From positions 744,001 through 808,000 of the forward strand of contig JAEINU010000001.1 of assembly GCA_016342685.1 (NCBI GenBank): a DNA stretch of 64,000 bases. The letters run 5' to 3'. Both the position numbers and the translations under genes were made by a program. The DNA comes from Bacteroidales bacterium. Its GTDB lineage: Bacteria > Bacteroidota > Bacteroidia > Bacteroidales > UBA12077. Below the pieces are notes generated by a model. That model was not told the DNA's origin and made no database searches. It saw only the letters and a list, made by a program, of their open reading frames with translations. The stretch's first letter is position 1. Every line of letters starts with the position of its first letter. Positions 12,221 to 24,026 of this stretch are shown piece by piece.

Positions 12221-14077
12221 TTATCTTTTTAACTGCAGTTTAAAATAGAATGTACTTCCAGTACCTTCTTCACTTTCTACACGAATTGTTCCTCCATTCT
12301 TTTTTATAAGCTCTGAACAAAGAATGAGTCCCATCCCGGTTCCTTTTTCTTTATCGGTTCCGTAGGTGGAAAAGCTAGTTTCAATTTTAAATAATTTGTC
12401 AATGTTTTCGGCGGGGATTCCTACCCCTTGATCTTTAATTGCAATTTCAATACAATTATTTTCAGAATTAATAAAGGCAATTTTAATGGTACTTTTTCTA
12501 TCAGAGAATTTGATTGCATTTGTTAATAAATTCCTGAAAATTGTTTTAATAGAGTCTTTATTTGCATGAATTAAAAGATCATCATTTAACTTAGTTTCAA
12601 TTTCAATTGTAATATTCTTTTCGTTTGCTCTTTCTTCAACAATGCTAAGAGATTCAATTATTATTGGTTTTAAACCAATGTTGCTTGTTTTAAAATCAAC
12701 AATATTCATTTGTATTTGAGCCCACAGCAAGAGATCTTGCAATAAATTGTTTGTTTTGGATGATAAGCCAATCAGTAAATTTATATAATCTAATTTTTCT
12801 TGGTATGAAATATCATTAAAACTGTCTTTTAATAAATTTAAAAGTTGAAGAAAATTTCCAATCGGGCTTTTTAAATCATGAGCCATAATTGAAAAGAACA
12901 TATTTTTTGTTGCGTTCGCTTCGGTTAATTCTTTTTCCGATTTTATTAAGGCATCTTCAGTCTTCTTTCGCTCCGTAATATCTTCTTTTATTGCAAGATA
13001 TTTAATTGTATTTCCATTGTCATCTATAATTGGGGATATGGAAGCTAGTTCCCAATAATGTTCACCATCTTTTCTTTTATTAAGAAACTCACCTGTCCAA
13101 GTATTGCCAGATGAAATGGCATTCCATAATTCTTGATAATCGTTAGAACTTGTATGTTCTGTTTTTAAGATTCTTGGATTTTTGCCAATTACTTCTTGGT
13201 TTGAATATCCTGTAACTTCATTAAATTTAGGATTTACATATTCTATATTTCCTTTTAAATCAGTAATAATTACTGATACAGGACTTTGCTTTATTGCAGT
13301 TGATAATGTTAATATTTCCTTTTCGACGGTTTTACGTTTAGTAATATCTCTAAGCGCAACAACCCTGTATTCTTTGTTATTAATAAATACATTGTTTGCT
13401 TCAATTTCAACCGTAAGATTTGTATTGTCGGCACAAATAATGATTATCTCGTGTATGCCAGATTGCCTTGTTCTTAATTTCGATTTTGCCAGCTTTGTAT
13501 AGTTTGGATGAATGTAATCAAGAATATTTTTCCCAATAATAAACTCTGCTGTATATCCTGTTATCTTGAGCGCCGAAGGGTTAATATCTTTGATAATACC
13601 ATTTTCATGAACAATTATACCTTCAACCGTTAAATTTGTAAGAACTTTATATCTATCTTGACTTTCTTGTAAAGCCTCTTTAGCTTTTTTCTGTTCTGTT
13701 ATATCTTCTAATATACCATCGAAATAATCAATGCTCCCATTAATATCTCTTATAACATTTATGGTTCCTTTTACAGTTATTGTTTTACCTGATTTTGTTT
13801 TAAGCGATTGTTCTTTTGTAATGTCTTTAACGGATGTTTCTATTAGTAGCTTTATTTCTGAATCACGATCTTCCTTCTTTAGAAATAAATCGTATGCACT
13901 TATCTTATAAATTTCCTCAAGCGAATATTCGAACATTTTCGCCAAAGTTGGGTTTGCATATAAAATAGCACCTTTAAGCGATGTTCTGAAAATCCCAATT
14001 GGAAGTTGATCCGTTAGGTTTCTTATCATGTCTTTATCATCTTTTAGATGATTTATATATTTTAAATGATCGGCCAT
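12221..14077 (-). CDS. Soluble multi-PAS sensor histidine kinase
   Basis: This 618-residue cytoplasmic kinase has no membrane segment. It has three PAS domains (about residues 12-130, 135-250 and 255-375, each closing with a PAC motif such as 'GILEDITEQKKAKE' or 'AIKEDITERKKTED'), a HisKA domain with H-box 'FFSIMAHDLKSPIGNF' near residue 395, and a HATPase domain with N-box 'FRNLLTNAIKFSD', G1 'KDQGVGIPAENID' and G2 'KGTGMGLILCSEL'. All catalytic motifs are intact. The signal would be an internal one (redox, small ligand or light) through PAS; the ligand is unknown. No receiver or regulator is adjacent, so it is an orphan kinase. It resembles the kinase at 21678-24026 in domain order and motif wording, so the two are probably paralogues. 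Confidence 0.92.
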   Translation of the reverse strand: MADHLKYINHLKDDKDMIRNLTDQLPIGIFRTSLKGAILYANPTLAKMFEYSLEEIYKISAYDLFLKKEDRDSEIKLLIETSVKDITKEQSLKTKSGKTITVKGTINVIRDINGSIDYFDGILEDITEQKKAKEALQESQDRYKVLTNLTVEGIIVHENGIIKDINPSALKITGYTAEFIIGKNILDYIHPNYTKLAKSKLRTRQSGIHEIIIICADNTNLTVEIEANNVFINNKEYRVVALRDITKRKTVEKEILTLSTAIKQSPVSVIITDLKGNIEYVNPKFNEVTGYSNQEVIGKNPRILKTEHTSSNDYQELWNAISSGNTWTGEFLNKRKDGEHYWELASISPIIDDNGNTIKYLAIKEDITERKKTEDALIKSEKELTEANATKNMFFSIMAHDLKSPIGNFLQLLNLLKDSFNDISYQEKLDYINLLIGLSSKTNNLLQDLLLWAQIQMNIVDFKTSNIGLKPIIIESLSIVEERANEKNITIEIETKLNDDLLIHANKDSIKTIFRNLLTNAIKFSDRKSTIKIAFINSENNCIEIAIKDQGVGIPAENIDKLFKIETSFSTYGTDKEKGTGMGLILCSELIKKNGGTIRVESEEGTGSTFYFKLQLKR

Positions 14078-14187
14078 ATTTCAATTATCTATTTGCAGAT
14101 TATACGGCTTTGTAAAGATAACGGTTTTTGTGTATATGTAACAAAACCACCTGTTCATCAAAAATATACAGGACTTTGCAGTGTTTT

Positions 14188-15510
14188 TTAAGGGAATCTT
14201 AGAATAAATATGGATCCTTTTGTCGGTTCTGAAATCACTTGCACATTTATTTTATGATAGTCACAAATCTTTTTCGATAAAGCTAATCCTAAACCATAAC
14301 TATCTTTTGTTTCATTTGAGTTTTTAAAACGAGAAAATATATCTGGGATTTTTTCTTTTTGAATTCCTATTCCCGTATCAGAAATTTTAATAGTAAACGA
14401 GTTGTTTTCTAGATAGCTTTCTATCTTAATATGTCCTATTTCTGTGTATCTAATCGCATTATTAATAAAATTATAGAAAAGTGTAAACAGTAGATTTTCA
14501 TTTCCATCAGTAATAAAGTTTAAAGGACTTAACTCTATTATTGATTGAAGTTCTTTTGCTTGCATCTTATCTTCAATTTCTTCGATTACATTCTTTAAAG
14601 TCTTATTAATATCAACTTTTTCGGTTAATATATATTCTTCATTTTCGATTCTCGACATCATTAAAAGAGTTCGAACTAAATTAGTCAATCGACGAAGTGT
14701 TTTTTTCGATTCAAAGATTTTAATCATGTCCTTTTCGGGAAGTTCACCTTCATGTAGAATGTTATCGAGTTTACTCTGAATAATACTTACAGGTGTAAGT
14801 AGTTCGTGAGAAACATTACTAATATAATCACGTTCATCGTTAAATGCAGTTTCGATTTTTCGCATAAGCGAATGTATTGTATCATCGAGATACGCAAAAT
14901 CGGATGTTGACGTTTTTACAGGTTCATAATTAAATGAGGATGGATGATTTGTTGATTTGAGTTTTTTAACGATTTTTTCAAAGGGCAAAAGTAGATATTG
15001 AATAAATGATAAATCGAAAATAAAAGTTAATGAAATAATAATGATTAAAAATATAAAAGCCAGTCGTTTAAGATTTTGTTCAAAACGATATATGGTCGAT
15101 ATGCTTTTCCCAATTTCAATTACATAATTGTTTTCATTTTCTTCAATTGAATAGCTTAGAACTCTGTAGTCGACTAATTCTTCTTCGATAATACGTTGCG
15201 AAAATTGAATTTCATTAAGCGTGGTATCCTTGTTAACTTGCTCAATAGATATATATTCTTCTTTTAAGATGTTATAACTTCCAAATGCTTGAAATTCAGC
15301 ATCCATATCGATAAATGATTCCATTCCTAAACTATCAACCAGTTCAATAACCTGATCGAGTTTTTGAATTAATACTTCGTCGGTTTCTTTTATCGAAATT
15401 TTACTTACAAACCAAGGTATTATTAATAATAACAAGGTTATTATGAGCGCTTTCGAAAAAGCATTAAAAATAGCAAGTTGACTTTTTAACTTTAGCTTAG
15501 GTAAAATCAT
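14188..15510 (-). CDS. Membrane sensor histidine kinase of an OmpR-type two-component system
   Basis: The kinase partner of the regulator encoded just upstream. Starting at 15510 gives 'MILPKLKLKSQLAIFNAFSK', the usual opening of this Bacteroidota kinase group, and leaves 1 base after the regulator stop; an upstream ATG at 15540 would overlap it. Transmembrane helix 1 is near residues 17-35, a periplasmic sensor of about 110 residues follows, then transmembrane helix 2 near 145-170, a linker resembling HAMP, the H-box 'YISNVSHELLTPVSII', and an HATPase domain with N-box 'FYNFINNAIRYTE', G1 'ISDTGIGIQKEKIPD' and G2 'SYGLGLALSKKI'. All motifs are intact. It senses an envelope signal. The operon (secreted basic protein, barrel, regulator, kinase) suggests the signal is linked to those envelope proteins. 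Confidence 0.92.
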   Translation of the reverse strand: MILPKLKLKSQLAIFNAFSKALIITLLLLIIPWFVSKISIKETDEVLIQKLDQVIELVDSLGMESFIDMDAEFQAFGSYNILKEEYISIEQVNKDTTLNEIQFSQRIIEEELVDYRVLSYSIEENENNYVIEIGKSISTIYRFEQNLKRLAFIFLIIIISLTFIFDLSFIQYLLLPFEKIVKKLKSTNHPSSFNYEPVKTSTSDFAYLDDTIHSLMRKIETAFNDERDYISNVSHELLTPVSIIQSKLDNILHEGELPEKDMIKIFESKKTLRRLTNLVRTLLMMSRIENEEYILTEKVDINKTLKNVIEEIEDKMQAKELQSIIELSPLNFITDGNENLLFTLFYNFINNAIRYTEIGHIKIESYLENNSFTIKISDTGIGIQKEKIPDIFSRFKNSNETKDSYGLGLALSKKICDYHKINVQVISEPTKGSIFILRFP

Positions 15511-15511
15511 A

Positions 15512-16186
15512 TTATATCTCGAATTTATATCCAATTCCACGAACCGTTTTTATCCAGTTAGAGTCATCAAAGGATGAAAGTTTTTTGCGAATATTTTTAA
15601 TATGTACATCGATGTAATTTGAATCGAAATCATCTTCGAAAAAATCGCCCCAAATATGCTCTGTTAATTGCAACCGATCTAGAACTCTGTTTTTATTTAG
15701 TACCAGATAACTGAGTAATTTGTACTCTTTTTTTGTTAAATCGATGTTTTTATCGCTATACTGCAAATGTTTTTTTGTTGTATCTAATGCAAAGTCACCA
15801 AAGTTTATAATTGATGATTGATGTCCAAATTTTCTTCTGGTAATTGCTTGTATTCTTGATAATAATTCTAGCAATGAAAATGGTTTTGGCAAGTAATCAT
15901 CGGCACCAAGATCAAATCCTTTTATTTTATCTTCTAATTCGCCACGAGCTGTTATTACAATAAAGTACGCTTCGGAATTATATTCTTTAGCTTCTTTAAT
16001 AAGATCCAAGCCATTGTAATCCGGGAGTCCTATATCAAGTAAGATAAAATCGTATGGGTTAACAGCAATAAGTTCAGAAGCTTCTGTTCCGGTATATGCT
16101 AAGTCGCAATTATATTCTTCTTTTTCAAGAAAATGTTTTATTTCTGATGATAAGCTTTTTTCGTCTTCTACAATTAAAATTCTCAT
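15512..16186 (-). CDS. OmpR/PhoB-type response regulator
   Basis: A 224-residue DNA-binding response regulator. The receiver domain (1-115) shows the acidic pocket 'VEDE', the phospho-acceptor Asp in 'FILLDIGLPDYNG' (residue 51), the Thr in 'VITARGE' and the Lys in 'LPKPFS'. The C-terminal winged helix (about 125-222) ends with 'VDVHIKNIRKKL' and 'IKTVRGIGYKFEI', typical of the Trans_reg_C family. It is 10 bases downstream of a barrel gene and followed at once by its kinase. Regulators of this class bind tandem half-sites spaced 11 bp apart, and two promoters nearby (18773-18807 and 20412-20446) carry exactly such repeats, so they are candidate targets; this link is inference. Confidence 0.95.
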   Translation of the reverse strand: MRILIVEDEKSLSSEIKHFLEKEEYNCDLAYTGTEASELIAVNPYDFILLDIGLPDYNGLDLIKEAKEYNSEAYFIVITARGELEDKIKGFDLGADDYLPKPFSLLELLSRIQAITRRKFGHQSSIINFGDFALDTTKKHLQYSDKNIDLTKKEYKLLSYLVLNKNRVLDRLQLTEHIWGDFFEDDFDSNYIDVHIKNIRKKLSSFDDSNWIKTVRGIGYKFEI

Positions 16187-16196
16187 CTATGGTAGT

Positions 16197-17123
16197 TTAA
16201 AAAATAAATGATAAAGAAATAAGAAATCCAGATTGATCTTTCATTCCAAAAGCTTTTAGTTTATCTGACGGTATGTAATACATCCAGGAAAAAGTAGCCG
16301 ATACACTATTAATTCCATAGCTTATTGGAATTAAGAAATCAACTCCTTGATATGTATATGTGTTGGTTGATAAACCATTATTTCTTAGATATCTTTCTAC
16401 AATATCTTCGGTTGTTATGTTTTCGGTTTGATATCCTCTGAACTTTAGAATAGGCAATAATACATTCTGTATATAGGGCTCGTAGAGATCGTATAACCAA
16501 TAATCGGTTCCTTGATTTACAGAGACTGTTGGTTGAATAAAAAGGAAATCATCTTTTGTAAGGACATTTTCAAAGTCAAGTAAAATTCCCACAGAAAAAC
16601 TTGTAAAATAATTTTTGTTATCGAGATAAAAATTACCATCGCCCGAAAGGTAGAGCATTTCGTAGGTTATTCCTGTCGATGCATTAATGGTATGATTGTA
16701 ATCTATTCCATTAAAATCAGACATCCCGGCATATTTATGATATGTATAATTAAGATCTATATCCCAAAAATCATCAAAGAAGTATTTTTGAAACCCGGCT
16801 TGTAAATCAATGTCGTAGCTCGATGTATCGGCTTTTAGGTAGCTGGTATACATAAAACTGGCATACAATCCTGTTTTATGAAGAAATGTAGCATCACCAA
16901 TAAAAGCCGGAATTGTTTCGTTTGCTTGATCTTTTGATTTTATTCTGTTATTCGTATAGTTGAGATCAAACATGAAAAAATTGAATTCATAATCTGTTTC
17001 TGTTAAAGTATCAGATAGTTGAGTGGAATCATTAGATTCTACCTGACTCCAAATTAAGTTAGGAGTTAAAAAAAACAAAAATATAAATCCTGCTATGGCT
17101 ATTTTACAGGAACTTAATGACAT
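16197..17123 (-). CDS. Outer-membrane beta-barrel protein, copy B
   Basis: I do not recognise a named family. Residues 1-27 form a signal peptide, and the mature protein of about 280 residues is made of alternating aromatic and hydrophobic strands ending in Phe ('SGFLISLSFIF'), the usual end of an outer-membrane barrel. It is a paralogue of the protein at 18958-19830: shared segments include 'YTNN', 'FHKTGLYASF' against 'FHKSGVYGGF', 'YTYHKYAG' against 'YTWHKYSG', 'GTDYWLY' against 'GTDFWLY', 'LPISYGI' and 'TFSWMYYIPS' against 'TFSWLYTIPS'. In copy B it lies 30 bases after a secreted Lys-rich protein and 10 bases before the regulator. A pore or receptor whose state is read by the two-component system is a guess. 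Confidence 0.8.
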   Translation of the reverse strand: MSLSSCKIAIAGFIFLFFLTPNLIWSQVESNDSTQLSDTLTETDYEFNFFMFDLNYTNNRIKSKDQANETIPAFIGDATFLHKTGLYASFMYTSYLKADTSSYDIDLQAGFQKYFFDDFWDIDLNYTYHKYAGMSDFNGIDYNHTINASTGITYEMLYLSGDGNFYLDNKNYFTSFSVGILLDFENVLTKDDFLFIQPTVSVNQGTDYWLYDLYEPYIQNVLLPILKFRGYQTENITTEDIVERYLRNNGLSTNTYTYQGVDFLIPISYGINSVSATFSWMYYIPSDKLKAFGMKDQSGFLISLSFIF

Positions 17124-17153
17124 TTAGTTAGTTTTTGAGTTTTTGTTGAAATA

Positions 17154-17405
17154 TCAACCCTTGCGTTTTCTTCGAATCGCTTTGCTTTTTCGTATTATTT
17201 GTTTTTTCTTTTTATTTTGAATTTGCGCTTTCTTTATCTGTGCTTTTTTTATTTGTGTTTTCTTTTGAGTTGTTTTCGGCACAGTCTTTACTGTTTCTTT
17301 TTTAGACGGATCAGTAGTTTTCTTTATTTGAGATTTGTTGTCTGTCTGTCCAAATGAAACTATGGCAAATAAAACTAAAACAAAAACAATTGCTAATCTT
17401 TTCAT
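17154..17405 (-). CDS. Small secreted Lys-rich low-complexity protein, copy B partner
   Basis: An 83-residue protein with a clean signal peptide (MKRLAIVFVLVLFAIVSFGQ) and a mature part of about 63 residues built almost only of K, Q, T, I and R. It includes a repeated unit ('KKTQIKKAQIKKAQIQ') and a strongly basic end ('KAIRRKRKG'). No fold is expected. It starts the operon that continues with the barrel, regulator and kinase. Its counterpart in the other copy of the module is the K/T/Q-rich protein at 19925-20359, which shares the architecture (signal peptide ending in FGQ or FAQ, basic repeats, K/R/G-rich end). Binding to polyanionic surface polymers such as LPS or DNA is an inference from charge. 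Confidence 0.75.
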   Translation of the reverse strand: MKRLAIVFVLVLFAIVSFGQTDNKSQIKKTTDPSKKETVKTVPKTTQKKTQIKKAQIKKAQIQNKKKKQIIRKSKAIRRKRKG

Positions 17406-17481
17406 AATTTCATATTCATGTTTTTCGCAGTGAAAGTTAACAAAATAATCATATAATATAAAGTGCTAATTTATGATTGAC

Positions 17482-17697
17482 TTATACAACTAGTTTAATA
17501 ACCATAGATTTTGTCTTAATACCATTCTTAAAATAATTAATATTAAGTTTTGTAGAGAATACCGATGCATTATATAAATCTTCGAAAGATTGAATAATTG
17601 TGACGTTTTCACGAATAACACTATACGGTTTGTTGTCAATATCGTTCATATTGCTTTTCCGTTTTGAGTTGTTTCTATTTTTAAGGATTTTTAGCAT
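17482..17697 (-). CDS. Small hypothetical protein
   Basis: A 71-codon frame with no recognised domain and no signal peptide. An internal ATG at 17649 (MNDIDNKPYSVIRENVTIIQ) may be the true start and would give 55 residues. The sequence 'SVIRENVTIIQSFEDLYNAS' is of normal composition for a small globular protein. It lies between the terminator of the upstream lipoprotein gene and the promoter region of the Lys-rich gene, so it would need its own promoter. It may equally be a chance frame. Confidence 0.4.
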   Translation of the reverse strand: MLKILKNRNNSKRKSNMNDIDNKPYSVIRENVTIIQSFEDLYNASVFSTKLNINYFKNGIKTKSMVIKLVV

Positions 17698-17710
17698 AAA
17701 TCATAGTTTT

Positions 17711-17772
17711 AAAAAAGTCCCAAAAGCATTTAATTAATAATCTTAATTATAGCTTTTTGCGCTTTTGGGACT
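17711..17772 (-). terminator. Long-loop terminator after the lipoprotein gene
   Basis: A 12-bp perfect stem (AGTCCCAAAAGC / GCTTTTGGGACT) encloses a 33-nt loop that holds a smaller hairpin. On the minus strand it is followed by a T run, so it ends the gene at 17794-18678. Confidence 0.75.
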
Positions 17773-17793
17773 ACTCAAATCTAAACTAACCAA

Positions 17794-18678
17794 CTACCAA
17801 ATTGGTTTTCTTCTTTTTATTTCGATGATTGTTGTAACTCCATCCTGAGTTAACTCAGCAAGGTTATCGCAAGTTCCATCGCCATAATCAATAGTAATTT
17901 CGGGTTCTTCACCTTTTATAATTTTTCGAACTCCAGACACAAAATATCTGTAGCATCCAATTTCGTTGATACGAATTAATGGAGTTATTATTTCGCAAGA
18001 AATTGCTGTTCCGTCTGCTAATGTACCATTCGAAAACCCCGTAACTTCAATAACATCATCACTCTTATCTCTGGTATCCGATCCTTCTATTACTTCGCGC
18101 ATTCGTTCTGCATACCAAGTAATTGTTCCTGCATTATTGGCTAAAATCATTGCTCCATCTACAAGAATATCGCTCTGTCTGTTTCCTGTTTCGTTAATTG
18201 TTCTAATTACATTCTTAGTACCTGTTAACTGGTTGTCGTCAACAAAGTAGTTTTCGAATGAATAATCAATTTCAACATCGCCAGCCCAATAATATCCATA
18301 ATGATTTATGAAGATTTTTCCACGTCGTTCGCGTCCATCATTACATAGGCAATTTTCTTCGCCAAAATCGATTGTTGTACTTACCATATCAACATCATAT
18401 ATGCGTGTAATTGTAGCGCAAGGACTTAATCGATTGTATCTCCAGTTAGATTCTGTTCCGGATTTACTAACACTGGCATTGTCAAGATAATCAACTGCTT
18501 CATCTCCGATATCTTCAATTTCATCGAATACTTCCGATGCATAGGATTCATCAATAATGTCGGAATAATCGCTTTCCGGTGTTGCAGTATCATCATTATT
18601 ACAAGACATTATTACAAACGCAAATAATGCCATTGTAATGAATGCTGCTAATTTTTTGTTAAAGATTTTAGTTTTCAT
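17794..18678 (-). CDS. Lipoprotein of unknown function
   Basis: A 294-residue protein with a lipoprotein signal (MKTKIFNKKLAAFITMALFAFVIMSC, lipid Cys at about residue 26) followed by an acidic linker rich in D, E and S. The mature body is beta-rich with several Cys ('GEENCLCNDGRERRG', 'GCYRYFVSG', 'DYGDGTCDNLAEL') and ends in a basic patch ('KRRKPIW'). The motif 'ITIDYGDGTCDN' is common in uncharacterised Bacteroidota lipoproteins; I cannot name a family. It has its own promoter with the same direct-repeat element as the gene at 19925-20359, so it is probably part of the same regulon as the barrel modules. Confidence 0.8.
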   Translation of the reverse strand: MKTKIFNKKLAAFITMALFAFVIMSCNNDDTATPESDYSDIIDESYASEVFDEIEDIGDEAVDYLDNASVSKSGTESNWRYNRLSPCATITRIYDVDMVSTTIDFGEENCLCNDGRERRGKIFINHYGYYWAGDVEIDYSFENYFVDDNQLTGTKNVIRTINETGNRQSDILVDGAMILANNAGTITWYAERMREVIEGSDTRDKSDDVIEVTGFSNGTLADGTAISCEIITPLIRINEIGCYRYFVSGVRKIIKGEEPEITIDYGDGTCDNLAELTQDGVTTIIEIKRRKPIW

Positions 18679-18772
18679 AATGTTACTATTTTTAGAGATT
18701 TCTTAATTATTTATTTACTGATCAGTGTAAATTAAAAGGAGTAGATAAATTCTAATACTCACTTTCTAAAAA

Positions 18773-18807
18773 CAAATCTAGTTTATCAAGATGAAGTGAA
18801 AATGAAG
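18773..18807 (-). promoter_or_regulatory. Promoter with 11-bp direct-repeat activator site (lipoprotein gene)
   Basis: Read on the minus strand, the site CTTCATTTTCACTTCATC (18790-18807, two TTCAT half-sites 11 bp apart) is followed by 9 bases and then TAGATTTG (18773-18780), which fits the Bacteroidota -7 consensus TAnnTTTG. There is no TTTG -33 element, so the repeat probably binds an activator. The same arrangement with the same spacing occurs at 20412-20446. Confidence 0.65.
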
Positions 18808-18957
18808 ATGATGAGTAATCAGGTGAAAGTTTTTTAAAGGTTTATTAAAAAATGTGAATAATAGATTTCAAGAAAAGAAAATATACATAGTATAGTTTGA
18901 TCTAATCAGGAAAAGATCATTCTATATTATGTATAGTTCACTAATAAATAATGGCTG

Positions 18958-19830
18958 TTATTTCTCCGAAAAATCTAGAAAATAACTGAGAGATAACATG
19001 AAACCAGATTGTTTTTGCCAACCGATATATTCGTATTTTTTTGATGGAATAGTATAAAGCCAAGAAAAAGTAATGTAGGTATTTTTAATCCCATAACTAA
19101 TAGGCAAATAGAAATTGAAGCTTTCGTACGAAAATGTTTCGTATGAATATCCTGATTGTTTTAAACTTGATAATAAACTGGTTTTTTCTGAACCCGACAA
19201 GCCTTCATATAACCAAAAATCTGTTCCAAAAGATAATGCTAAGCTTGGACTAATATATAGAGCATCATTTTTAAACAGAATTTTATTTATAGTGAAAAAT
19301 CTAGAGAAATTTAAGTCAAAAGCGTAATTTTTGGTTTCTCCTAAATAATAGGTAAGATCGGCAGTAAAATAAAAATTATTGATATCGTATGCTAATATAA
19401 AATTTATTGCGTGATCGTAATTAAATCCTTCCAAAATAGTATCGCCCGAGTATTTATGCCAGGTATAGCTAAGGTCAAAATCGAATCCGTTCTTAAAATA
19501 TTTTTGATAACCAGCAGCGATATCATAATCATAGGAGGTCGTTTGATCTCCAAAATAATTAGCATATCCGAAACCACCGTAAACTCCCGATTTGTGAAAA
19601 TAGGATATGCTTGAAAATAAGCTTGGTATATTTTCCGATTCTCCTGTTAAATATTCAATATTGTTGTTTGTATAGCTTACATTTAGTATAGCTGAACTAT
19701 AGTTCTCTTGATTAGAGTCTTGTTCAATTGATGTTTTACTGGTGTCAATTTGACTTTTTACATGATTTGGGAAAAAAAGCAATAGAATTAGTAAAACAAT
19801 TAAAGGTATTGATTTTATTGTTGAAGTCAT
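18958..19830 (-). CDS. Outer-membrane beta-barrel protein, copy A
   Basis: A paralogue of the barrel at 16197-17123. It has a signal peptide (MTSTIKSIPLIVLLILLLFFPNHVKSQ), a short Ser/Thr/Gln-rich linker and then some 240 residues of alternating beta strands ('SSAILNVSYTNN', 'GFDFDLSYTWHKYSG', 'GFMLSLSYFLDF'). It lacks the roughly 20-residue loop near 'TTEDIVERYLRNNG' found in copy B. It follows the K/T/Q-rich secreted protein gene by 94 bases with a terminator-like hairpin in between, so it is probably expressed at a lower level by read-through. No named family is recognised; an outer-membrane channel or receptor is likely from the pattern alone. Confidence 0.8.
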   Translation of the reverse strand: MTSTIKSIPLIVLLILLLFFPNHVKSQIDTSKTSIEQDSNQENYSSAILNVSYTNNNIEYLTGESENIPSLFSSISYFHKSGVYGGFGYANYFGDQTTSYDYDIAAGYQKYFKNGFDFDLSYTWHKYSGDTILEGFNYDHAINFILAYDINNFYFTADLTYYLGETKNYAFDLNFSRFFTINKILFKNDALYISPSLALSFGTDFWLYEGLSGSEKTSLLSSLKQSGYSYETFSYESFNFYLPISYGIKNTYITFSWLYTIPSKKYEYIGWQKQSGFMLSLSYFLDFSEK

Positions 19831-19874
19831 CTTTGGTAATTTGGATATGAGTTTAGAAAATGATTGTGAGATAA

Positions 19875-19915
19875 AAATGTACTAATCCCTAACAGTAAAA
19901 TTGATAGGGATTAGT
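19875..19915 (-). terminator. Intra-operon hairpin between K/T/Q-rich gene and barrel gene
   Basis: An 11-bp stem (ACTAATCCCTA / TAGGGATTAGT, loop 13 nt) followed on the minus strand by ACATTTTTATC. It is probably a partial terminator that lets the small protein be made in excess over the barrel. Confidence 0.6.
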
Positions 19916-19924
19916 ATATGTAAT

Positions 19925-20359
19925 TTATCTTCCACCTTTCTTTTTGCTTACAGCACCTTGATTGCTTTTAGCCATTTTTTTGGCATTTTTCTTTTGTACT
20001 TTTGATTGCTCTTTTTGAGTTTTCTTTAATTGTTTTTGCTCTTTTGTTTGAGTTTTCGCTTGATCACCGGATTGTACCTTTGTTTTTGTTTGGCTTTTTA
20101 CTTGTTCTCCAGTAGGTTCAGACACTTGTTCTTGTGTTTTGGTTTGAGTTTTTACCTGAGTTTCGGCGTTAACGTTTTCTTTAGACTGAGTCTTTGTTTG
20201 AGTTTGAGTTTGAGTTTGAGTTTGGGTTTTAACCTGTTCTTGAGTTTTTACTTGCTCTTGAGTTTGGGTTTGTTGTTTCTTTTGCTCTTTAATTTCTTCT
20301 TGAGCGAAACCGGCAACTGATATTGCCATTGCTGTTAAAATAATAATAACTTTTTTCAT
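19925..20359 (-). CDS. Secreted K/T/Q-rich repeat protein, copy A partner
   Basis: A 144-residue protein with a signal peptide (MKKVIIILTAMAISVAGFAQ) and a mature part made almost wholly of K, T, Q, E and V in irregular repeats (units like 'QVKTQ' and a run of TQ dipeptides), turning strongly basic at the C-terminus ('KKNAKKMAKSNQG', 'KKKGGR'). No fold or catalytic residue is seen. The gene is the first of the copy A pair and carries the shared direct-repeat promoter. The DNA is repetitive too (reiterated gttttg/gtttga hexamers on the plus strand), which would allow length change by slippage. A cell-surface or periplasmic polyelectrolyte is a reasonable guess; the function is unknown. Confidence 0.8.
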   Translation of the reverse strand: MKKVIIILTAMAISVAGFAQEEIKEQKKQQTQTQEQVKTQEQVKTQTQTQTQTQTKTQSKENVNAETQVKTQTKTQEQVSEPTGEQVKSQTKTKVQSGDQAKTQTKEQKQLKKTQKEQSKVQKKNAKKMAKSNQGAVSKKKGGR

Positions 20360-20411
20360 AATTAATTTTTGTATTAGTTAATAACATGTATTCTATATTA
20401 ATTCTCAAAAA

Positions 20412-20446
20412 CAAATTTAGACTATAAAGATGAAGTGAAAATGAAG
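20412..20446 (-). promoter_or_regulatory. Promoter with 11-bp direct-repeat activator site (K/T/Q-rich gene)
   Basis: On the minus strand CTTCATTTTCACTTCATC (20429-20446) is followed by 9 bases and TAAATTTG (20412-20419), a match to the TAnnTTTG element. The 18-bp site is identical to that at 18790-18807 and the spacing is the same. The element also lies upstream of the plus-strand lipoprotein gene and might act on both. Confidence 0.65.
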
Positions 20447-20470
20447 AGATGCTTTTTTGAATAAATATTG

Positions 20471-20478
20471 TAAATTTG
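20471..20478 (+). promoter_or_regulatory. -7 element of the lipoprotein gene at 20503
   Basis: TAAATTTG matches the Bacteroidota consensus TAnnTTTG and lies 24 bases before the start codon, giving a short leader. No -33 element at the usual 19-base spacing is seen. Confidence 0.5.
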
Positions 20479-20502
20479 AATAAATCATAAAACTAACTTA
20501 TC

Positions 20503-20868
20503 ATGAAAAAACTTATTTTCTTCATTACTCTAACAAGTTTTTTAGGTTTATTATCGTGCAATAGTGGTACAGATAAAAAACCAAATGAATCAAAAGTTGA
20601 AAAATCAGAATTAATAAAAGATTGCGATGATTTTTTAACTCATTATGAAGAGTGGGTTGATGAATACATAGAGGCTATTGATAGTTATCTTAATAATCCT
20701 GACGATGAGACTATTGCGACGAGTTATATGGATTTAATGCAAGAAGCAATGGTGTGGAGCACTAAATGGGTAACTTTGGTAGATTGCGCCGAAAACGAAG
20801 AGTACGAGCAAAGATTTGAAGATATTGCAAAAGAAGTTGAAAATAAACTTCAAGAAATCGGATTGTAA
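20503..20868 (+). CDS. Small acidic lipoprotein of unknown function
   Basis: A 121-residue protein with a lipoprotein signal (MKKLIFFITLTSFLGLLSCNSG; lipid Cys at residue 19), a lysine/glutamate linker, and a helical domain with a Cys pair ('LIKDCDDFLTHYEEWVDEYI' and 'TLVDCAENEEYEQR') that could form a disulfide. Trp and Glu positions resemble small helical lipoproteins common in Bacteroidota, but I cannot name the family. It is divergent from the K/T/Q-rich secreted protein gene and shares its regulatory region. Confidence 0.8.
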   Translation: MKKLIFFITLTSFLGLLSCNSGTDKKPNESKVEKSELIKDCDDFLTHYEEWVDEYIEAIDSYLNNPDDETIATSYMDLMQEAMVWSTKWVTLVDCAENEEYEQRFEDIAKEVENKLQEIGL

Positions 20869-20905
20869 AATTGTCTAAAAAGTACTGTGTTGTAGTTCAA
20901 ATTTA

Positions 20906-21274
20906 CTACACCATATACTTTCTAATTATTCCGAATAGTTTTTCTTCTTCAACAGGCTTTGATAAAAAATCTGTAAATCCAGATTCTATTATTGCTTTTT
21001 GTTCTGGAATAAGAGCAAATGCAGTTTGTGCAATAATTGGGACATCAGCATTAAATTCACGAATTTTTTTTGTTGCATCATAACCATTTAATATTGGCAT
21101 TCTAATATCCATTAAAACTAATTGAATATTAGAGTGTTCTTTTACCATTTCAATTGCAATTTGCCCATTTTTTGCATGGAGAATATTTAAATCTAGTTCT
21201 TCGAGTCGAATTTTGTACAACTCAAAACTAATTTCATCATCCTCAGCAATTAGCAGAGTAAATTTATTTTTCAT
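20906..21274 (-). CDS. Stand-alone response regulator receiver
   Basis: A 122-residue protein made of one receiver domain and nothing else. The acidic pair 'AEDDE', the phospho-acceptor Asp in 'LVLMDIRMPILNGYD' (about residue 56), the Thr in 'IAQTAFA' and the Lys in 'LSKPVEEE' are all present. Without an output domain it must act through protein contacts or as a phosphate sink, as CheY or Spo0F do. It is the last of three genes with a near-duplicate receiver (17 bases upstream) and a multi-PAS kinase. Confidence 0.92.
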   Translation of the reverse strand: MKNKFTLLIAEDDEISFELYKIRLEELDLNILHAKNGQIAIEMVKEHSNIQLVLMDIRMPILNGYDATKKIREFNADVPIIAQTAFALIPEQKAIIESGFTDFLSKPVEEEKLFGIIRKYMV

Positions 21275-21291
21275 ATTTAAAATATTAGCTT

Positions 21292-21666
21292 CTAATTCTT
21301 TGTTCTGTATTTGTCTATAATTGTTCCAAGTATAGTTTCATCTAATGGTTTTTCAAAAAAATCAGTAAACCCCATTTCTAAAATCTTTTGATGTTCTGGT
21401 ATTGCTGCAAATGCCGTTTGTGCAATAATTGGAACCTGACGGTTTATTTCGCGAATCTGTTTGGTTGCTTCGTAACCATCTAATATTGGCATTCTAATAT
21501 CCATTAGAATTAAATCAATCTTATTATTCTCTTTTACTTTTTCAACAGCAACTTTACCGTTTGGAGCATGTATTATGTTTAAATTAAAATTCTGAAGTCG
21601 AGCTTTGTACAATTCAAAACTAATTTCATCATCCTCTGCTATTAACGTTGTAAATTTATGTTTCAT
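21292..21666 (-). CDS. Stand-alone response regulator receiver, duplicate
   Basis: A 124-residue single receiver domain, a close paralogue of the next gene downstream: both start with the same 'TLIAEDDEISFELYKARL' type of opening and share 'LMDIRMPI' and 'IIAQTAFA'. The phospho-acceptor Asp, Thr and Lys are intact. It lies 11 bases downstream of the multi-PAS kinase, which is its likely phosphodonor. Tandem duplication is clear; whether the two copies have different partners cannot be told. Confidence 0.92.
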   Translation of the reverse strand: MKHKFTTLIAEDDEISFELYKARLQNFNLNIIHAPNGKVAVEKVKENNKIDLILMDIRMPILDGYEATKQIREINRQVPIIAQTAFAAIPEHQKILEMGFTDFFEKPLDETILGTIIDKYRTKN

Positions 21667-21677
21667 CTTAATTAATT

Positions 21678-24026
21678 TTAAATAGATAATGGAAAAGAAA
21701 AAGTAAATGTGGAGCCTTCGTTAACTTTGCTTTCTACCCATATTTTGCCACCGTGTTTTTCTACAAACTCTTTGCATAAAATTAAACCTAACCCTGTTCC
21801 TTTTTCTTTGTTGGTTCCTTCGGTAGTTATATTGTGATCTAATTTAAAAAGTTTATTAATTGTTACTTGATCTATTCCTATGCCTGTGTCTTTCACAAAA
21901 AACTTCACTTCATTGTTTGTGGTTTTACCGCAGCCAATAAATATTTCACCTCCTTCATTCGTAAATTTAATTGCATTGGAAATAAGGTTTCTAAATATTG
22001 TTTTAAACATATCTTTATCAATTTCCAAAGTATACGTTTTTGCATTTGTGTTTGAATTAATGCTTAAGTTTTTTGCAATGGCTAAATGTTGCATTTCATC
22101 CAAAACTTCATAAATCAATTCTTTACATTTATACGTTTGTGGATTAAAGGATATTTTGTCTCGTTGACTTTTCGACCATATCAATAGATTTTCTAAAAGT
22201 GTATATGTTTTATTTGCAGAAATATTCATGAGTTTAATAATCTGCGATAGTTTTTCATGCGTATATTTTAGATGATTTTCTTCTAGTAAATCTGAAAAAC
22301 CTACTATATTATTAACAGGACCTCTAAGATCATGTGCGATTATTGAAAAGAATTTATCTTTAGTTGCATTAAGATCCTTAAGTTGAATATTATTTTCTTT
22401 TAATTCTTCTTCTGTTTTTTTTCTCTCTGTTATGTCTTGAAAAATTACTGCAAATTGATTTTTTTGAGGACAAAATGCTAGTGTGTCGTAATGTTTTTCT
22501 AATTCCTGAGAATAGTTCTCAAAATGTATTGATTTTCCAGTTAATGCTACACTACCATACTTTTCAATCCATTCTTTTTCAATGTTAGGTAAGATTTCTA
22601 ACACTGTTTTGTTTATAATATCTTCTTTCTTAAGACCTGTTAATTTTTCAAATTCTGGATTTATATCAATAAACCTATAATCAATAGGCTTGTTATTTTT
22701 ATCAGTTATAATTTCATTCAAGGCAAATGCTTCTTTCATATTTTCAAAAAGCAATCTGTATTTTTTTTCACTTTCAACCAATTCAATTTCAGCTTTCTTT
22801 CGTTCTGTTATATCTCTAAAAGCTGCAACTCTTATGTTTTTTTTATTTACAGTAAAATTTCTTGCTACAATTTCTATTGGAACTTCTTTACCATTTTTTC
22901 TAATGATAACAATTTCATAAGTTTTCGAAATTTTATTTATAATATATTCAGTAACCATACTTTGATAGAATGGATGAATTAATTTTAATACATTGCATCC
23001 AATAATTTCTTCTCTACTATATCCGGTAAGCTTTAAGAAGCTCTCGTTGCAATCAGTAATGTTTGTATTTACATGAAAAACAATACCTTCAAATGTTAGT
23101 TTTGATAGGTTTTTAAAACGTTCCTCACTTTGTTGTAATTGTTCTTGTTGTAGCTTCCTATTCGATATATCTCTAATAATCCCAACAGAATGCCAACTAT
23201 TATTTAATCTTAAAGCAGAAAGGGATAATTCAATAGGTATTTCTACCCCATCTTTACGAATTGCGGAAAGTTCAATTATTTTATTTAGCGCATTTCCTTT
23301 ACCTGTTTTAACAAATTTCTTAAATGCCTTTGAGTGACTGGGCATGTATTGATCGGGAGTTATTAGTTTATGAAGATTTTTACCCTGTATTTCTTTTTCT
23401 TTGTATTGAAATATTTTTTCAGATGCTTTATTCCAAAAAACAACATTGCCTTTATCGTTTATAAGTATTATTGCATCTTGTGCCGTATTGGTTATTGCTT
23501 TAAATTTACTTTCGCTTTCTTTTAGTTTATTTTCAATCTCCTTTTTAGAAGTAATATCGGATATTCTGCCTTCAGCAATCGTATCTCCATCTTTTTCATA
23601 AACATTAAATATTCGATCGTTAAACCAATGAAGATTATTTTTGACATCAAAAATTCGATATTCTAATTCATAGTTTTCGCCAATTTTAATATGTTTTAAG
23701 AAATCTTGGATTTTCTCTTGATCATTTTTATGAATTGCTTTATCCCAATTTACAGTATCCTTTTTTAAGTTATTAGGATCGAAGCCTAGTAGTTTTTTAA
23801 CTCCGGATGACCAATATAAAGCGCCTTGATTCAAAGAGTATATGTATGTAATATCAGGTGAGTTTTCAGTCAGTTTGCGGTACTTTTCTTCACTTTCTTT
23901 TAAACTTTTTAAAACATCATCATTACAATTATTATTAGATATAAGTATGTCATTCAAATCTTTCAGAAGTTGTTCCGAAGATTTTATCTTATGTTTTTTG
24001 AGTACATCTTTAAATGATTTCATCAT
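21678..24026 (-). CDS. Soluble multi-PAS sensor histidine kinase
   Basis: A 782-residue cytoplasmic kinase without membrane segments. Four PAS units follow one another (about residues 42-165, 165-290, 295-410 and 410-535), with PAC ends such as 'GIIRDISNRKLQQEQ' and 'AAFRDITERKKAE'. The HisKA domain has the H-box 'FFSIIAHDLRGPVNNIVGFS' near residue 560, and the HATPase domain has N-box 'FRNLISNAIKFTNEGG', G1 'VKDTGIGIDQVTINK' and G2 'KGTGLGLILCKEF'. All catalytic motifs are intact. It is first of an operon with two output-less receivers, so signalling probably goes through a phosphorelay or protein contact. A second ATG follows the first directly; either may start the protein. Confidence 0.93.
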   Translation of the reverse strand: MMKSFKDVLKKHKIKSSEQLLKDLNDILISNNNCNDDVLKSLKESEEKYRKLTENSPDITYIYSLNQGALYWSSGVKKLLGFDPNNLKKDTVNWDKAIHKNDQEKIQDFLKHIKIGENYELEYRIFDVKNNLHWFNDRIFNVYEKDGDTIAEGRISDITSKKEIENKLKESESKFKAITNTAQDAIILINDKGNVVFWNKASEKIFQYKEKEIQGKNLHKLITPDQYMPSHSKAFKKFVKTGKGNALNKIIELSAIRKDGVEIPIELSLSALRLNNSWHSVGIIRDISNRKLQQEQLQQSEERFKNLSKLTFEGIVFHVNTNITDCNESFLKLTGYSREEIIGCNVLKLIHPFYQSMVTEYIINKISKTYEIVIIRKNGKEVPIEIVARNFTVNKKNIRVAAFRDITERKKAEIELVESEKKYRLLFENMKEAFALNEIITDKNNKPIDYRFIDINPEFEKLTGLKKEDIINKTVLEILPNIEKEWIEKYGSVALTGKSIHFENYSQELEKHYDTLAFCPQKNQFAVIFQDITERKKTEEELKENNIQLKDLNATKDKFFSIIAHDLRGPVNNIVGFSDLLEENHLKYTHEKLSQIIKLMNISANKTYTLLENLLIWSKSQRDKISFNPQTYKCKELIYEVLDEMQHLAIAKNLSINSNTNAKTYTLEIDKDMFKTIFRNLISNAIKFTNEGGEIFIGCGKTTNNEVKFFVKDTGIGIDQVTINKLFKLDHNITTEGTNKEKGTGLGLILCKEFVEKHGGKIWVESKVNEGSTFTFSFPLSI

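Follow-up and report, generated by a model that had tools for sequence, protein, structure and literature searches.

Gene layout of the locus

The window analysed here is the 64,000-nucleotide stretch C9:744001-808000 of a 4.77 Mb draft Bacteroidales genome. Our subject is a module on its minus strand in which genes for small secreted basic proteins precede genes for predicted outer-membrane barrels, beside an OmpR-type two-component system. A lipoprotein gene, a small open reading frame (ORF), basB, barB, an OmpR-type regulator gene and a kinase gene lie in close succession, and a separate pair, basA-barA, precedes them. In the separate pair, basA (19925-20359) encodes a K/T/Q-rich secreted basic protein of 144 amino acids (aa) with a net charge of +17 beyond residue 22, and barA (18958-19830) a barrel of 290 aa with 12 predicted strands. 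The second copy consists of basB (17154-17405; 83 aa, net +23 beyond residue 22) and barB (16197-17123; 308 aa), followed by the genes for the OmpR/PhoB-type response regulator (15512-16186) and the histidine kinase (14188-15540). Intergenic gaps are 30 bp between basB and barB, 10 bp between barB and the regulator gene, and 94 bp between basA and barA. The regulator and kinase genes overlap by 29 bp if the GTG start of the kinase is used, although alignment with relatives makes the ATG at 15510 the likelier start.

Alignment of the two barrels across 287 columns (34% identity, E 7e-54) shows that they are paralogues, and a search of the genome with barA (E ≤ 0.01) matched only barA and barB. 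A preliminary description of this DNA had proposed two pairs of basic protein and barrel in the same order, with paralogous barrels and with copy B joined to the regulator and kinase in one operon; the ORFs, the alignment and the spacing bear this out. It had also known no named system of this layout, which agrees with our searches, as both barrels, both basic proteins and the lipoprotein fall below every Pfam and NCBIfam cut-off. The small ORF (17482-17697; 71 aa) belongs to no Pfam family, and several congeners have an ORF of 82-96 aa in the equivalent place. No Rfam match was found over 13500-21000.

Pairing of basic proteins with barrels

We scored barrels of at least 150 aa in 61 loci (65 barrel rows; L186, with fragments under 150 aa, was left out). 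We counted as a partner any ORF of 45-260 aa on the strand of the barrel whose end fell within the span from 400 bp upstream of the barrel start to 120 bp inside the barrel gene, and whose product had a hydrophobic stretch at its N-terminus and a net charge of +5 or higher after residue 22; the length and charge thresholds were fixed after the first loci had been seen. Such an ORF lies just upstream of 30 of 33 regulator-linked barrels. Among the remaining genes of these loci, a control set that includes other genes of the module, 42 of 564 have one. The species are related, so that the 33 barrels are not independent events, and seven families are represented. The three misses are L036, where the homologue has a net charge of +4, L049, where it is truncated at a contig edge, and copy B of L042, a true absence. 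A further 7 close-family barrels, either second copies or without an intact regulator next to them, all have a basic partner, and among distant barrels without a regulator the partner is present in 9 of 25. The preliminary description had asked whether a basic gene is always the upstream neighbour of barrel homologues. For the regulator-linked barrels this is nearly always so, and the outcome named there as refuting, homologues mostly without such a partner, would apply to the distant, regulator-less ones.

A core motif, [VIA]KxV[PA], was found in 30 of 38 partners versus 24 of 317 other ORFs, using a pattern picked after the sequences had been seen; a basic C-terminal stretch often follows it. 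The motif is present in basB of the window (VKTVP) and absent from basA, as it is from the partners of L034 A, L035 A, L036 A, L042 A, L046, L155 and L174. Compared with basB, basA adds a K/T/Q/E-rich repeat run of varying length, and complete basA ORFs with right-looking starts range from 132 to 234 aa. The two proteins look disordered, and neither matches the Pfam LTXXQ (CpxP/Spy) family up to E 1. We also considered that the basic composition might be chance low complexity, and rejected this in view of the conserved place of these genes and the core motif in 30 of 38 partners.

Distribution and conserved operon

Our first draw of 59 genomes, including that of the window, gave 16 with a match: the genome itself, 14 of 19 congeners and one genome of another family. 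Profile matches at E ≤ 1e-5 were obtained in 19 of 393 genomes of the order, 13 of 392 in the phylum draw and 31 of 396 in the class draw, many of the last being weak and without a regulator. A contig scan added three named records, all from uncultured Bacteroidetes (e.g., GWF2_33_16), and no relative was found on viral contigs. The regulator-linked module occurs in seven families, within the order (f1, f23, f82, f95, f113) and at class level (f117, f125).

The order lipoprotein-basic protein-barrel-regulator-kinase is present in all 8 strong new loci from the order (L073-L080), where the regulator ORF of L075 (81 aa) is probably broken or misassembled; an operon of this kind is absent around the five distant barrels found in the order (L081-L085). 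At class level, L151, L153-L155, L172-L176 and L179 show the order basic secreted protein-barrel-regulator-kinase, and no lipoprotein of the window family was seen nearby. These loci represent the places fetched, from which G719 (phylum draw) and G886, G564, G1095, G447 (two), G774 and G892 (class draw) were left out. Because most relatives carry a single pair, the unit is the single operon. In the barrel tree the B copies, barB included, form one group among sequences of the genus (five rows, support 100/99; 94/93 with L042), and the duplication of the pair thus appears to be local to the genus.

The lipoprotein gene (17794-18678) is the first gene of the block, but we rejected the lipoprotein as a defining part of the system, as it occurs elsewhere without barrel or regulator. 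Its family is found in 48 of 392 genomes of the phylum draw, the present one included, and at 20 of these loci, mostly the better matches, no barrel or regulator of the window families lies within about five printed genes on each side. Kinases at these 20 loci are only distant ones (50-60 bits; L140 and L147). L142 (G560) carries three tandem copies of the family, with no barrel or regulator of the window kind among the printed neighbours. The lipoprotein family was aligned, and the model of the lipoprotein is mostly antiparallel sheet (predicted local distance difference test, pLDDT, 81.9). Its fold matches are weak (Osh4, E 0.02; best Z 11.3, to a barrel at 4.7 Å), and lipid binding is a lead only.

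Several distant relatives of the barrel lie in other settings. Those at L156:5694-8263, L157 and L189 are clustered with an extracytoplasmic function (ECF) sigma factor, a small gene and an LTXXQ/Spy-like protein (Sigma70_r2 at 2e-18 in L156; LTXXQ at 9.5e-5 in L189, 23.5 bits against a cut-off of 24.3). It is possible that this cluster is a second envelope-stress setting for the barrel superfamily, and its ECF sigma and LTXXQ-like neighbours again point to envelope stress. At L190:5606-7726 a regulator-less distant barrel lies downstream of a gene for a 242-aa secreted protein with basA-like QTQTQTQ runs around LSxxQ-like segments. This protein has no Pfam match, and on these features could possibly bridge basA and the LTXXQ proteins. 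Secreted, highly basic proteins with RDY-IV-KGNNH and R/Q-rich tails are encoded at L082:10128-10460 and L084:6780-7097, with weak barrel relatives near in a different gene order.

Operator and candidate regulon

The preliminary description had noted a regulator-like site shared by the promoters of the lipoprotein gene and the copy A pair, and this site, CTTCATTTTCACTTCATCTT, is indeed present on the minus strand at 18788-18807 before the lipoprotein gene and at 20427-20446 before basA-barA, with CTTCAT repeated at a step of 11-12 bp. Each copy is followed after 10 bp by a -7 box, TAGATTTG at 18773-18780 and TAAATTTG at 20412-20419. Allowing up to 3 mismatches, CTTCATTTTCACTTCATCTT matches three times in the window (two perfect) versus 0.02 expected, and the whole genome holds 3 perfect copies and 4 with 3 mismatches, compared with 2 for a control pattern. 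The intergenic region with the basA operator is shared by a divergent gene for a small lipoprotein resembling DUF6591 (20503-20868; 26.2 bits, cut-off 27.1), which several congeners have in the neighbourhood too.

The site is conserved among relatives. TTCAT-N6-TTCAT occurs without mismatch before 19/19 lipoprotein genes and 16/16 basA genes. It precedes none of 6 basB genes nor, as a perfect copy, any of the 8 basic genes located behind a lipoprotein gene in L073-L080. Counting copies with one mismatch or none, 36 of 52 regions have a site (200 mononucleotide shuffles: mean 2.1, maximum 7). A longer pattern, CTTCATnTTCnCTTCAT, gave 46 exact sites in 24 genomes versus 0 for the reversed control, and by our own count 38 of these belong to the module. 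In module loci, all 37 sites have TAnnTTTG starting at a distance of exactly 10 bp, 31 times perfectly and 6 times with a single mismatch, against a background of 1.1% for boxes with no more than one mismatch; the 38th (L222) lies on a separate contig before another basA, with a perfect TAnnTTTG. Among the eight non-module sites, three look like chance: those in G105 and G201, inside a gene and with a poor -7 box, and that in G315 (L226), with a perfect box and no recognisable gene behind it. Candidate targets met once each are a DUF2202 lipoprotein (L223) and a TPR protein (L225).

PMC7366714 gives TAnnTTTG as the -7 consensus in Bacteroides and Flavobacterium. The geometry of a 17-bp repeat, a 10-bp spacer and a -7 box places a tandem direct repeat, stepped at about one helical turn, next to a promoter, as in operators of the OmpR/PhoB type, and we infer that the regulator of the operon binds the CTTCAT repeat. 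Since no site precedes basB, the site before the lipoprotein gene probably serves the whole block down to the kinase. One regulator plausibly governs both copies, as had been proposed, because the same conserved operator stands at both promoters. The site occupies the place of the -33 element, a geometry which suggests that the regulator is an activator.

Beyond the module, 219 bp separate the third perfect site in the genome from the downstream genes of an 82-residue protein and a C_GCAxxG_C_C redox protein (Pfam 1.9e-33); on the opposite strand, a gene for a secreted protein runs divergently at a distance of 22 bp. A site before this operon is present in 8 of 10 genomes of the genus searched, including our own: exact in G000, G006 and G016, with 2 mismatches to the composite pattern in four, and with 3 in G010. 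The C_GCAxxG_C_C assignment is by Pfam in our own genome and by eye at the other loci. Also in our genome, a site with 2 mismatches lies 30 bp before the gene of a secreted basic DUF6515 protein (E 2e-34, net +18). DUF6515 genes also follow sites in G017 and G229 (2 mismatches), G105 and G201 (3) and, as a fragment, G012 (1), assigned by Pfam in L235, L233, L236, L239 and the fragment L234 and by eye at the other loci. A second family of secreted basic proteins thus seems to be controlled by this operator across three families of the order, a claim that is weaker in line with its weaker sites. A word search of the open-access literature for DUF6515 returned just one plant paper.

Regulator and kinase

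The regulator combines a receiver and a winged-helix domain (Pfam Response_reg 6.2e-26, Trans_reg_C 1.5e-25), the composition of the OmpR/PhoB type, and its identity across 13 aligned relatives is 76-91%. The kinase (Pfam HisKA and HATPase_c) has two transmembrane segments and an acidic periplasmic sensor of about 111 residues with a net charge of -14, and its best NCBIfam model is T9SS_HK_PorY, aligned over nearly the full length at 218 bits (cut-off 350). Sensor charges range from -4 to -19 in 21 of 22 kinases of the order, the sensor of L077 being the one that could not be delimited. Within the order, the only group in which the charges are complementary, the basic protein could plausibly contact the kinase sensor electrostatically; on the same comparison such contact is not plausible for ten more distant class members.

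In the draft genome of L035 (4176-8173) a 755-aa ORF with a signal-like start lies between regulator and kinase, and barA is broken by a stop. The next gene downstream of the operon encodes a PAS-domain kinase (12221-14077), as it does in many congeners. Two CheY-like receivers and another PAS kinase are encoded on the other side of the module (20906-24026).

Predicted fold of the barrel

An AlphaFold model of barA, built on an alignment of 20 relatives, has a mean pLDDT of 80.6 and twelve strands spanning residues 46-286. According to the strand list, the turns on one side are 2-6 residues long, and the loops on the opposite side reach about 29 residues. The closed barrel behind a signal sequence that is typical of outer-membrane proteins is thus present as a prediction. 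It begins at residue 46 after a short low-confidence stretch, leaving no room for a POTRA domain. The model matched 227 PDB entries at E ≤ 0.001, and the 50 matches listed are barrel proteins. By VIA-align the nearest fold is KdgM (Z 17.8, 170 residues at 2.1 Å, 13% identity), followed by EspP (Z 17.6), NalP (17.1), FapF (16.8), NanC (15.9) and OmpG (15.1). This supports an outer-membrane barrel, and does not tell apart a channel, an exporter and an anchor.

Interpretation and alternatives

We read the locus as a self-regulating two-component operon of the envelope, with secreted polycations and a barrel as its chief products, a reading to which we give an even chance of being right. The kinase would sense disturbance of the periplasm or outer membrane, and the phosphorylated OmpR-type regulator would bind the tandem CTTCAT repeat just upstream of the -7 box and activate transcription. 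Its targets would be its own operon (lipoprotein-basB-barB-regulator-kinase), the duplicate basA-barA and, probably, the secreted basic DUF6515 proteins and the small redox operon elsewhere in the genome. After export the basic proteins would most likely act as disordered polycations, either in the periplasm or at the anionic outer membrane, and the barrel would be their partner in that membrane; action on the anionic membrane is suggested because several of the products are polycations. Their role could be that of substitutes for divalent cations or of Asr-like disordered chaperones. Possibly they damp the kinase as well, in the manner of CpxP and CpxA, which the acidic sensors of the order would fit and the near-neutral sensors of the class would not. 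More tentatively, we suggest a Bacteroidota envelope-stress "polycation regulon" under the two-component pair. It would comprise several unrelated basic proteins for export and a barrel of 12 strands to anchor or sense them; polycations produced on demand would then buffer the charge of the outer membrane, to be read back by the kinase.

Gene content, order and conservation, the operator with its promoter geometry, the candidate regulon and the predicted barrel fold are computed results; binding of the site by this regulator, the signal, the sign of regulation, the polycation role, the barrel contact and the feedback are inferences. Several observations weigh against this reading. The copy B barrel of L042 has a regulator and no preceding basic gene, and the basA of L036 reaches just +4. 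In several species basA is rich in acidic residues and would be a weak polycation (net +4 to +9). The window basA and seven other partners of the 38 are without the core motif, which was itself defined post hoc. Sensors of the ten distant class members are near-neutral (-6 to +2). No operator was recognised, by eye, upstream of the ten class-level operons, and the regulon therefore stands for the order only. The DUF6515 sites are 1 to 3 mismatches from the composite pattern, which at 3 mismatches gives 56 hits in 18 genomes versus 11 for the control, and the redox operon suits a pure envelope-charge role poorly.

Among the alternatives, the barrel could be the export channel of the basic protein, the two forming a dedicated secretion pair whose product reaches the cell surface or the outside. 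This would be consistent with the tight placement of the basic gene upstream of the barrel (30/33) and with 12-strand autotransporter barrels (EspP, NalP) and the amyloid exporter FapF among the nearest folds. However, the passive porins KdgM, NanC and OmpG are equally near, so that the fold does not choose, and the lack of room for a POTRA domain also argues against export; we consider this reading unlikely. The same porins invite a second possibility, quite unlikely in our view, that the two-component system controls a barrel through which nutrients or ions pass, and that the basic protein adapts an anionic substrate to it in the periplasm. Although the best structural match, KdgM, is a porin for acidic oligosaccharides, the identity to it is 13%, the barrel has no Pfam family, and conserved sugar-utilisation genes, which were not systematically annotated, were not seen in the printed neighbourhoods.

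Another alternative is that the system responds to redox state or oxygen and that its targets include envelope proteins, as the recurrent site before the C_GCAxxG_C_C operon in the genus could indicate. Its chances seem slim given that 38 of the 46 exact sites are at the basic-barrel-lipoprotein module, and that kinase and regulator have no redox domain by Pfam. That the basic protein is a secreted signal or antimicrobial precursor with the kinase as receptor is very doubtful: the gene of a small secreted product accompanies that of a kinase, and the operator ahead of the operon makes feedback likely, but the length and charge of basA vary widely among species and the same kind of site precedes unrelated basic DUF6515 proteins.

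Comparison with known systems

The autoregulated envelope operon that we favour resembles the CpxP, Asr and OprH modules and belongs to none of them. In oprH-phoP-phoQ of Pseudomonas aeruginosa, an outer-membrane barrel gene stands before an OmpR-type regulator and a kinase. OprH has 8 strands compared with the 12 predicted here, oprH is not known to be preceded by a small basic gene, and the window barrels have no match to the OprH family in Pfam or NCBIfam. PorX/PorY is approached by the window kinase, which aligns with nearly the full length of the PorY model. However, the kinases score 218 to 230 bits against the cut-off of 350, PorX is not known to be of the OmpR type and the regulator of the window is; identity with PorXY was therefore rejected.

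Asr of Escherichia coli is a protein of basic low complexity regulated by RstA and is not known to have a barrel partner; nor is a barrel known in the cpx unit. By Pfam or NCBIfam, Asr shares no sequence family with basA and basB, its model being absent from their hits up to E 1, with no direct comparison to Asr made. According to PMC10746267, Asr is a periplasmic, intrinsically disordered chaperone that aids outer-membrane integrity. The likeness to CpxP-CpxA/CpxR of E. coli lies in a small exported, positively charged protein and an acidic kinase sensor, and PMC4160245 describes the positive charges of CpxP as meeting the negatively charged sensor of CpxA. CpxP is there a folded helical dimer, in contrast to basA and basB, which are without an LTXXQ match and look disordered.

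QseG-QseE, in which an outer-membrane lipoprotein is described as the accessory protein of a kinase, can be likened by gene content alone, as a lipoprotein heads the window operon too. The monomeric porins KdgM, NanC and OmpG share the small barrel fold at 10-13% identity, without a Pfam family match. A few word searches of one open-access library found no paper that, by its title or the opening of its abstract, deals with an operon like lipoprotein-basic-barrel-regulator-kinase, which is not proof of absence.

Significance for Bacteroidota

For Bacteroidota, the systems that respond to envelope stress are known in far less detail than Cpx, Rcs or sigma-E. The present system, an unnamed envelope two-component system with a secreted accessory and an outer-membrane partner, is a defined, conserved operon with an operator regular enough for a regulon to be proposed from sequence, and its small secreted basic proteins are unnamed in the family libraries searched. 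The system probably helps the cell to sense and maintain its outer envelope. It raises the question of whether secreted basic proteins, held by a barrel partner, may serve as a regulated substitute for divalent cations or as chaperones of the envelope.

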